A stretch of DNA of 64,000 nucleotides from Bacteroidota bacterium. Lineage in GTDB: Bacteria > Bacteroidota > Bacteroidia > Flavobacteriales_D > Crocinitomicaceae. The notes below the pieces were generated by a model. That model saw only the letters and a list, made by a program, of their open reading frames with translations, ran no database searches and was not told the origin of the DNA. A program made the position numbers and the translations under genes. The stretch is taken from the NCBI GenBank assembly GCA_030148165.1, contig JASBTZ010000013.1, positions 186,001 to 250,000 of the forward strand, written 5' to 3'. Shown here in pieces: positions 6,529 to 8,653 of this stretch; the first letter of the stretch is position 1, and each line of letters opens with the position of its first letter.

Positions 6529-6577
6529 GATTTTTGTCAAAAAAATAATCAACTACCGACTATGAATAAAAAAGCCC

Positions 6578-6613
6578 CACTGCTGCGCAGTAGTTGTACT
6601 ACTGCGGCAATCA
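6578..6613 (+). repeat. REP-like palindromic repeat, copy 1
   Basis: This 36-base unit contains a nine-base-pair stem (6586-6594 with 6598-6606) and a three-base loop. It is repeated 45 bases downstream with only two mismatches over 36 bases. A related inverted copy lies on the other side of the transposase gene. Confidence 0.85.
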
Positions 6614-6622
6614 ACCACTACT

Positions 6623-6658
6623 CACTGCTCCGCAGTAGTTGCACTACTGCGGCAATCA
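6623..6658 (+). repeat. REP-like palindromic repeat, copy 2
   Basis: This is the second direct copy of the unit at 6578-6613. Its stem is 6631-6639 with 6643-6651 around a three-base loop. It lies just beyond the 3' end of the Y1 transposase gene. Confidence 0.85.
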
Positions 6659-6691
6659 TTCCCTGGCCATAGATATTTATCGGAAACCGCC

Positions 6692-7252
6692 TTATCCAAC
6701 AACTTGAAGTATGCGTGGAATACAACACACCTCCGTTAACAACGACTCTTGCTCATGATAATTACTTGCAGATGAATACTTCCAATCTACTGCATCATTC
6801 ACAAAACCCGCGACAACAGGATTATTGTGAATATAATTAATCTTGTTCCAGATAAATCTCTCAGAATACAATTCAATTGCATGACTACCTGATTGCCAGA
6901 ATTGGTAGCCTATTGATTCCTTTTTCTCAAATTCGCGCAACATCCATTCTCTTCTGGATTCAGGTTCATTTTTGATCTGATCGATAATTGATCTTGCAGT
7001 GTGTCGCTTAAAGTCGCGAATTACATCTTTCAATTCAAATGGAGCATCGCAATTGACAATTAAATGTAAATGATTTGTCATTAAACAATATGCATATAGG
7101 TTCAGACCTTTGTGTGTGATGCAATAATTTAGCGAATCTATGATTGCATCTTTATGGTTTTTTCGAGTGAACACATCAATCCAGCCGACTACAGTACAAG
7201 TTATATAATAGGTAGTATTCTTCTTGATTGTTTGTTTTATTCCTGGCCTCAT
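6692..7252 (-). CDS. REP-associated tyrosine transposase (RAYT, Y1/HUH family)
   Basis: This 186-residue single-strand endonuclease/transposase of the IS200-like Y1 family cuts and joins DNA at hairpins. The HUH metal-binding motif is H61-L-H63 (TNHLHLIV). The catalytic tyrosine is most likely Y140 in INYIHNNPVVAG, the usual RAYT context. The region KDVIRDFKRHTAR also matches the family. The gene is flanked by REP-like hairpins: two beyond its 3' end and one inverted copy just upstream of its start. It abuts a truncated surface-protein gene at its 5' side. The reading frame is intact, so the enzyme could be active. RAYTs are often domesticated, and whether this one still moves cannot be told from one copy. 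Confidence 0.93.
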   Translation of the reverse strand: MRPGIKQTIKKNTTYYITCTVVGWIDVFTRKNHKDAIIDSLNYCITHKGLNLYAYCLMTNHLHLIVNCDAPFELKDVIRDFKRHTARSIIDQIKNEPESRREWMLREFEKKESIGYQFWQSGSHAIELYSERFIWNKINYIHNNPVVAGFVNDAVDWKYSSASNYHEQESLLTEVCCIPRILQVVG

Positions 7253-7256
7253 TTAA

Positions 7257-7463
7257 TTAAGTTAGTAAATAGTCCGCAGCAGTACAACTACTGCGGAGCG
7301 GGATTTCCAAAGGTCTTTGACCGCCCGGACCTACACCATTCCATCCAAGAAATGGGTTCGGTGGGAACATTGGTGAATTATTAGTCATACTCGAAACTTG
7401 GCTATAACCGCTTGTAACAAGTAAAATGGAAAAAATAAATAGTAGTAGTGTGGTCTTTTTCAT
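7257..7463 (-). pseudogene. Truncated secreted surface-protein gene, cut by the REP/RAYT unit
   Basis: Sixty-eight residues remain. There is a good signal peptide (MKKTTLLLFIFSILLVTSGYSQ), followed by TNNSPMFPPNPFLGWNGVGPGGQRPLEI. The FLGWN...PLEI segment is the typical opening of long Bacteroidota surface proteins, which normally continue 'PLEIRN' for hundreds of residues. Here the frame runs directly into the REP hairpin (PLRSSCTAADYLLT) and stops. No continuation was found beyond the transposase. This is best read as a 5' fragment left by insertion or deletion at the REP. An alternative is a genuine short secreted peptide, which is less likely. It lies two bases after the T9SS gene upstream. 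Confidence 0.7.
7274..7299 (-). repeat. REP-like palindromic repeat, copy 3 (inverted)
   Basis: The stem CCGCAGCAGT/ACTACTGCGG (7274-7283 with 7287-7296) has one mismatch. It is in the opposite orientation to the copies at 6578 and 6623, so the transposase gene is bracketed by inverted repeats. The repeat supplies the last codons of the truncated frame at 7257-7463. Confidence 0.8.
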
Positions 7464-7465
7464 GG

Positions 7466-8467
7466 CTATTTTTTTTGAATTTTATAGATGTGTTGATTAT
7501 GTTGAGATTGTATTATCACGAATAATAAGCCGCTATCGAAGCTTGATATATCGAGTTCTATATTGTCCGAGTTTAAGTTGAATTCTAAGTAAAGCAGTTG
7601 ACCCAAAGAATTTGTAATTATTAGGTCATAAGATAAGTTCTGTTCGTTTCTAATCGCAATGTAACTTTGAGCTGGATTGGGATATACGTTAAAATGTTCA
7701 GTTAAATCATACTCAGGCACTGATACGTTGCAAGGTAACAAATCAATACCACCATTACAGAGTAATGAATCTGTTGATATGCAAACGTCATCAACGAGAT
7801 TATAGCTGTAGTTATTCATACAATTACCACAGTTAAAGTTCATTGTATCTGTGTTTAAGTCATCATAGAAATTACCTAACGCCAAATATTCGTAGGCTGA
7901 ATCTGCAATTATGCTACCTGAAACTCTGACCCAATTTGCAGTATCATTTATTATTGCTGTTGAAACTAAATGAGCGTAATTATCTATTGGAACTGGGTTG
8001 GCAGAATTGAAAGGAATAGTTGAAAGTCTCATGCCAATATTATTAGAAGCACATTCATAAAAGAAAGTTCCATCATTAGTTCCTCCCATTACTGTATAGA
8101 AGGACAAGAAGTACTTTTGACCCACAACTAAAGGTTGGTTCAATTGAATTCCAATATGCTCCCTAACATTACTTGCGGTAGCTGCCCAAAGTCCCATTCC
8201 TGCAAATGCTCCACAACCCCTCCGGTCTAATTGATATAAAGAGAAACTTTGTGGAACTCCCATTTCGTTCGGAGCCGAACACGAATTGTAATAGTCCGGC
8301 GTTGTAGGAATTGAACTGTATTTGCTCCATCCATCTGCAAATTCTATTTGGTCTCCTAAGGAAGGACAATCAGTGTTAATCTCGAAAGAAAAGTTAGGGA
8401 CAAGATTAACTTGCCCATAAGAAAGGAAGCTCCCCAATAGTAGTAATAGTACTAATAGTTTTTTCAT
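7466..8467 (-). CDS. Secreted protein with T9SS type A sorting domain
   Basis: This 333-residue protein has a signal peptide (MKKLLVLLLLLGSFLSYGQ). The N-terminal domain opens with NLVPNFSFE and continues with Cys-rich beta segments and NWVRVSGSIIAD..YEYLALGNF. This is the jelly-roll, carbohydrate-binding-like domain often found in front of OmpA-like or T9SS proteins. The last 75 residues start at FNVYPNPAQSYIAI and contain a Gly-Leu-Leu-phe strand, which is a canonical T9SS sorting domain. The protein should be exported and attached at the cell surface. Ligand and role are unknown. The truncated gene at 7257-7463 follows at once and was probably co-transcribed. Confidence 0.88.
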   Translation of the reverse strand: MKKLLVLLLLLGSFLSYGQVNLVPNFSFEINTDCPSLGDQIEFADGWSKYSSIPTTPDYYNSCSAPNEMGVPQSFSLYQLDRRGCGAFAGMGLWAATASNVREHIGIQLNQPLVVGQKYFLSFYTVMGGTNDGTFFYECASNNIGMRLSTIPFNSANPVPIDNYAHLVSTAIINDTANWVRVSGSIIADSAYEYLALGNFYDDLNTDTMNFNCGNCMNNYSYNLVDDVCISTDSLLCNGGIDLLPCNVSVPEYDLTEHFNVYPNPAQSYIAIRNEQNLSYDLIITNSLGQLLYLEFNLNSDNIELDISSFDSGLLFVIIQSQHNQHIYKIQKK

Positions 8468-8634
8468 GATTCAGCGACTTTCAATTTACGATTTTATTTT
8501 CAATAAGAGGTTGGAGAAGAGAGAAATAAGTATTTATACTTAAGTCTATTTAGCCTGTTTATTTCTTTGCTCGATTCACCAAGATTTAATCATTTTCATC
8601 ACATCAATACAGCTGAAATCATTTCAATAAAAAA

Positions 8635-8653
8635 GCCCCTTAGAAAAAGGGGC
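8635..8653 (-). terminator. Rho-independent terminator downstream of the M1 peptidase gene
   Basis: The stem GCCCCTT/AAGGGGC (8635-8641 with 8647-8653) has a five-base loop. On the minus strand it is followed by a run of T. A second C/G-rich hairpin (8725-8730 with 8735-8740) lies between it and the peptidase stop codon. Confidence 0.75.

Follow-up and report, generated by a model that had tools for sequence, protein, structure and literature searches.

The window, by which we mean the whole 64,000-nt stretch of DNA that was analysed, contains an intact RAYT gene that lies between palindromic repeats, and next to it a two-gene pair for secreted proteins whose second gene appears to be cut short, all within the interval between bcp and a peptidase gene (Table 1).

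Table 1. Positions of the unit, its repeats and the neighbouring genes in the window, and of short copies in a relative
Feature	Position	Strand	Remarks
14-nt direct repeat AATAAAAAAGCCCC	6565..6578	+	adjoins 3' end; half a terminator
Terminator-like hairpin, outer repeat end and flank, then GGCTTTTTTA	6577..6593	-	pattern match only
36-nt direct repeats	6578-6613, 6623-6658		3' side of RAYT; 94% alike
Outer second copy of 3' terminal repeat	6582..6607	+	45-nt spacing; lengthens unit to 718 nt
Inner 3' terminal repeat	6627..6652	+	inverted relative to 5' end; unit then 6627-7299, 673 nt
RAYT gene	6692..7252	-	intact, 186 aa; ORF, protein models and motifs (see text)
ORF of putatively truncated secreted protein	7257..7463	-	native 5' stump about 7303-7463
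Inverted repeat copy, arm	7274-7299		5' side of RAYT; 26 nt in common with direct repeats (92%)
5' end of unit, CCCGCTCCGC head and palindromic repeat	7274..7302	-	repeat comparison
333-aa protein with T9SS sorting tail	7466..8467	-	upstream gene of pair; stop 2 nt before stump ATG
14-nt direct repeat, second copy	8626..8639	+	in terminator-like hairpin on peptidase-gene side
Short copies in G034	L128 874-1153, 2058-2327; L129 5667-5934, 6401-6679		same ends

The RAYT gene and its flanking repeats

The RAYT carries the motifs NHLH, WQ (at 119) and YIHNNP, with H61, H63 and Y140, as a sequence-only reading of this DNA had described for a Y1 (HUH) transposase. The NCBIfam model for REP-associated tyrosine transposases (NF047646) matched it with 95.1 bits, above the curated cut-off of 80, and Pfam Y1_Tnp with 34.7 bits (cut-off 23), whereas the IS200/IS605 transposase model NF033573 (NCBIfam) reached 28.7 bits, below its cut-off of 55. 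Searching the PDB by sequence returned four transposase entries with E-values of 0.09-0.44, including 4er8 (TnpAREP). A phage search gave no match, and a plasmid search gave matches in 5 of 72,556 records with a best identity of 45.5%.

The available text of PMC6006769 equates TnpAREP subclass 2.6 with RAYT group 5 and reports it from Bacteroidetes, whereas the sequence-only reading had described RAYT/REP units as known mainly from proteobacteria. Compared with Table 1 of that paper, the window RAYT has the subclass motifs NH[LIV]H, WQ and YIH[QN]NP, a length of 186 aa against a median of 179 aa, and a HuH-Y distance of 79 (H61 to Y140) against a median of 82, with a way of counting that possibly differs from that of PMC6006769. 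The flanking hairpins are likewise of the atypical kind without a GT[AG]G tag at the foot. Judged by the sequence features examined, the RAYT fits the description of subclass 2.6, which supplies the named group to which the sequence-only reading had wished to align it. The point of difference is that the same source describes hairpin copies elsewhere in the host genome for this subclass, whereas the genome of the window has none beyond the unit.

Comparison of the repeats gave a unit with the head GCTCCGC whose inverted ends measure 26 nt and form imperfect palindromes, each with a 3-nt loop. The pair of direct 36-base repeats had been recognised correctly from the sequence, but the inverted copy shares 26 nt with them and not 36. 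Because the short copies in the relative G034 start with CCCGCTCCGC, we assigned the CCC at 7300-7302 to the 5' end, and the outer 3' copy looks like a tandem duplication. The chance expectation of the 23-nt repeat core in the window was 0.00 (100 shuffles), and folding of the three repeats as single-stranded DNA gave z-scores of -3.6, -4.4 and -4.2, with 2 of 200 shuffles folding as well as the third repeat. A terminator-like hairpin, formed by the outer repeat end and its flank, precedes a run of T, so a terminator may have been rebuilt by the insertion.

Within the 3.5-Mb assembly (98.84% complete), which has a single RAYT, the repeat core was found at up to 3 mismatches only in the three copies of the window, and a relaxed pattern with 2 mismatches gave three extra sites, as many as its reversed control did. 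Because further copies are missing and the extra sites are at control level, we discarded the idea that this genome harbours a REP population, and the term 'repetitive' is not earned here; nor does the genome hold the abundant dispersed copies with a GTAG tag that mark canonical REPs. The whole-genome search that the sequence-only reading had proposed thus did not support a REPtron-like unit serving a REP population: of the two findings that it had named as jointly refuting it, no further repeat copies and the same short gene in relatives lacking the RAYT, the first was obtained. The repeats of the window resemble the termini of a compact unit and not dispersed REPs.

The shortened secreted-protein gene

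The ORF at 7257-7463 is present and terminates in the inverted repeat, as had been read from the sequence. It has a signal-peptide-like start, FLGWN...PLEI, and the repeat together with the DNA past it codes for its last 14 residues. Residues 1-54 align with residues 1-52 of an intact 494-aa protein of the relative G180 (E 5e-6 in a single comparison), and this alignment stops at PLEI, where the repeat head begins. By this comparison, the ORF is the 5' stump of a gene cut at the repeat.

We inspected 20 loci that carry a 333-aa gene homologue, one of them the window's own, and fetched further DNA afterwards. An intact second gene of the stump's type lay directly downstream in one of the 19 other loci (G180 contig 142, the 494-aa protein), while the pair on G180 contig 52 has a second ORF of only 100 aa. 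A further intact pair is found on contig 16 of the window's own genome, where a T9SS-tagged homologue is followed by a 722-aa second protein. Both intact second proteins (494 and 722 aa) carry Peptidase_S74, and their T9SS-tail scores are 20.8 and 23.5, below the Pfam cut-off of 27.

The stop codon and the signal-peptide-like start of the ORF would also suit a small gene that is complete, or an ORF that arose by chance, as would the rarity of intact second genes at the neighbour-homologue loci. A search at E 0.01 for short genes like the stump had no match in the 98 other genomes of the 99 covered, a weak test with a 55-aa query; this too is compatible with a complete or chance ORF, and it means that the same short gene in relatives without the RAYT, the second finding named above, did not appear. 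We nevertheless regard this explanation as very improbable, given that the final 14 residues derive from the repeat and beyond and that the match to the 494-aa protein occurs in the same gene order.

Insertion by itself does not account for the lesion, since the far side of the unit does not carry the 3' part of the gene; of the earlier proposal, an insertion in or deletion of a long secreted-protein gene, the stump cut at the repeat stands and insertion as the sole event does not. With one query the missing part was not recognised elsewhere, and the same query found two other S74-like genes in this genome, each with its own signal-peptide-like start. Among the 28 other genomes of the genus with a bcp match, the peptidase gene is directly beside bcp in 13 and one gene away in 2, 11 have other neighbours, and in 2 the contig ends too soon. 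Because bcp adjoins the peptidase gene in 13 of these 28, the gene pair and the unit look like an extra 2-kb block, although the interval is variable.

An unlikely alternative that would account for the absent 3' part is one-ended capture, in which the unit inserted in a secreted-protein gene elsewhere and came to the bcp-peptidase interval together with the stump and the 333-aa gene as a 2.05-kb block. The direct contact of bcp and peptidase gene in same-genus genomes agrees with this, and capture may be hinted at by the 14-nt repeat, which occurs 6 times in the genome with two copies bounding the block (simulated chance of 0.009 for a same-strand neighbour pair of the 14-mer within 2.1 kb). 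However, the other five copies of the 14-mer sit in terminator-like hairpins, so that its recurrence without duplication is plausible; moreover, the single query recognised no donor site, and in the relatives inspected we noticed no capture of this kind. Our preferred order for the lesion is insertion followed by deletion.

RAYT units and their ends in related genomes

Among 299 genomes searched, including the window's own, a RAYT homologue (threshold E 1e-10) was present in 77 and the repeat pattern CCGCWGNNNNTGNNNNNCTGCGG in 60, the reversed control pattern being found in 4. Both occurred in 35 genomes, the pattern only in 25, the RAYT only in 42 and neither in 197 (Fisher p 1.2e-9, kinship not corrected). 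Four inner stem pairs that are left free in the pattern paired perfectly in 20 of 39 distinct sequences, compared with a shuffled mean of 3.9 and a maximum of 11 in 10,000 shuffles (kinship not corrected); this test drew on 93 genome-by-variant rows, copied by hand and covering 46 of the 60 genomes, with each variant counted once per genome.

We surveyed the ends at the 30 best-ranked RAYT loci for which DNA was available, of which one is the window's own and 4 belong to another family of the order. A loose pattern allowing 2 substitutions found inverted ends on both sides in 25 of the 30 loci, and in the opposite orientation in 12, a fit to the wrong orientation that arises because the ends are palindromic. 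With the strict pattern, ends were found on both sides in 15 loci and in the opposite orientation in 3. Shuffled flanks gave 0. One or both ends are absent at 5 of the 30 loci.

The inner-stem type of the ends follows the RAYT tree, with 5 changes compared with a shuffled mean of 12.8 and 0 of 200 shuffles as low; the labels were set by hand for 28 of the 30 loci, leaving out L023 and L030, which lack recognised repeats. Many of the comparators are fragmented assemblies, and five named relatives are metagenome assemblies labelled Flavobacteriales (two), Flavobacteriia, Crocinitomicaceae and Chitinophaga pinensis.

Several known systems share parts of this architecture. REPtrons and REPINs of Proteobacteria, as described in the available texts of PMC2817692 and PMC3116915, also have a RAYT gene between inverted palindromic repeats, but here there is no GTAG tag, the repeats look like the ends of a whole unit, and there are at most 15 pattern matches per genome among the matches listed, whereas over 100 are usual in REPtron/REPIN systems (PMC2817692). 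In TIRtrons (TIRYT), a RAYT-like gene is enclosed by terminal inverted repeats, some of which are double palindromes; the common motif GGGGWSAS given in the accessible part of PMC3733652 differs from the head of the window unit, as judged by eye against that motif only. At one locus of G008 (C162, L010 963-2576), repeats of 240-450 nt that are 85-89% alike flank the RAYT on both sides, and the hairpin foot is different (CGAAGGATT).

Probable mobility of RAYT units

Two species, G121 and G076, have units that are 95.8% identical over 769 nt, exactly from GCTCCGC to GCGGAGC, with unrelated flanks on contigs of 3.2 and 3.4 kb. At an intergenic site in genus g22, the unit is present in G071 and G143 (88% identical over 3.5 kb), and the site is empty in G332, G111, G351, G333 and G171, each with one match across the junction at 70-82% identity. 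The site appears to be empty in G177 and G321 as well (two-piece matches), G320 carries a unit whose RAYT match is shortened, and a remnant is present in G343. A stretch of 23 nt that is single in the empty site of G332 is doubled around the unit.

At the place corresponding to the unit of G110, G069 has repeats, does not align in the RAYT part and has no RAYT match. The unit of G112 starts inside a ParE-like ORF that continues in G084 (PF05016, 26.5 bits in G084, cut-off 23); G095 is 97% identical to G084 at this ORF, and past its unit G112 aligns to neither. Unit copies within one genome are 90.7% identical over 734 nt in G193 and, in tandem, 97.9% over 863 nt in G059. The single-contig genome G037 has two copies of the RAYT region (L014 114-797 and 1428-2107) that are about 1.3 kb apart and 97.1% identical over 684 nt, the second with a stop codon; this pair reads as a local duplication followed by decay.

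Shorter copies that have the same ends and leave no room for a RAYT were found three times in G076 (about 195 nt, 89-97% alike) and four times in G034 (about 270 nt, CCCGCTCCGC...GCGGAGC). Among the six pairs of G034 copies, five are 86-96% alike; the remaining pair is 81.5% alike over a longer stretch. Relatives also contain the repeat as inverted doublets (G076).

Direct repeats flanking the element scored at least 19 in 8 of 27 elements, compared with a null of 700 cross pairs with its 99% point at 13 and a maximum of 26. Two of these eight are copies of the end repeat and two represent one locus (G143, G071); those in G145 and G008 may belong to repeat arrays. Because 19 of the 27 elements have no flanking direct repeat above a score of 9, there is no fixed target duplication, and we rejected a general one.

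Together, the unit-exact copies, the empty site and the ends shared by the short copies make whole-unit movement likely in this RAYT group. This goes against the printed view: the available text of PMC8266576 states 'no evidence of tnpAREP mobility' and describes RAYTs as mostly single copy, that of PMC8049555 describes them as vertically inherited and domesticated, and a search of the literature, as far as the texts were available, found no report of unit mobility in RAYT group 5. A Y1 HUH transposase and hairpins near the ends are shared with IS200/IS605 elements, and whole-element movement, which empty sites show for a relative's unit at the one g22 site, would be a further likeness. The inverted-repeat ends set the unit apart, as does the 23-nt duplication at that site, since IS200/IS605 elements lack larger target duplications (PMC2817692, available text).

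For the window itself, we consider it probable that the compact RAYT unit at 6582-7302 moves as a whole and at this junction cut the second gene of the secreted-protein pair. Comparison established the ends, the agreement of end type with RAYT clade, and the unit-exact copies and empty site in relatives. The RAYT would bind the hairpin ends in single-stranded DNA, cut with Y140 and move the whole unit, and the short related elements, which have the same ends and no room for the gene, could be moved in trans. The unit would have inserted in or beside the second gene of the pair, after which a deletion on the bcp side of the unit would have removed the 3' part of that gene. Speaking against this explanation are the presence of only one unit in this genome, the missing pattern in 42 of the 77 RAYT genomes and the missing RAYT match in 25 of the 60 pattern genomes; the relatives compared yielded no empty site for the unit of the window.

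The single copy would also fit an immobile, domesticated RAYT of vertical inheritance, as portrayed in the parts of PMC8049555 and PMC8266576 consulted, next to a gene lost by an unrelated deletion. We hold this to be improbable, since it is at odds with the unit-exact copies and the empty site in relatives, with the meeting of stump and unit at the repeat head, and with a tree in which the four same-genus RAYTs do not form one clade and that of G030 groups with two of another genus (95/84).

Beyond the preferred reading of whole-unit movement and a cut second gene, it is conceivable, though we are doubtful, that these flavobacteria harbour group-5 RAYT units which have remained autonomous transposons and form an undomesticated branch lying between the IS200/IS605 elements and the immobile RAYTs. 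Such units would move whole, mobilise short non-autonomous copies, produce target duplications that vary in length and be able to take neighbouring genes along at one end, of which the 2.05-kb block in the window might be an example. RAYTs are cited as domesticated bacterial transposases; a mobile RAYT group, if real, would permit a direct comparison of mobile and immobile RAYTs through unit presence and absence among sisters, and would offer defined ends for tests in vitro. The window unit lends itself to such tests, being small and intact and having defined limits.

As a separate observation, G112 (C152, L127 3-1225) has the 3' half of the RAYT together with the end repeat in three partial copies, which are arranged in tandem and about 94% identical.
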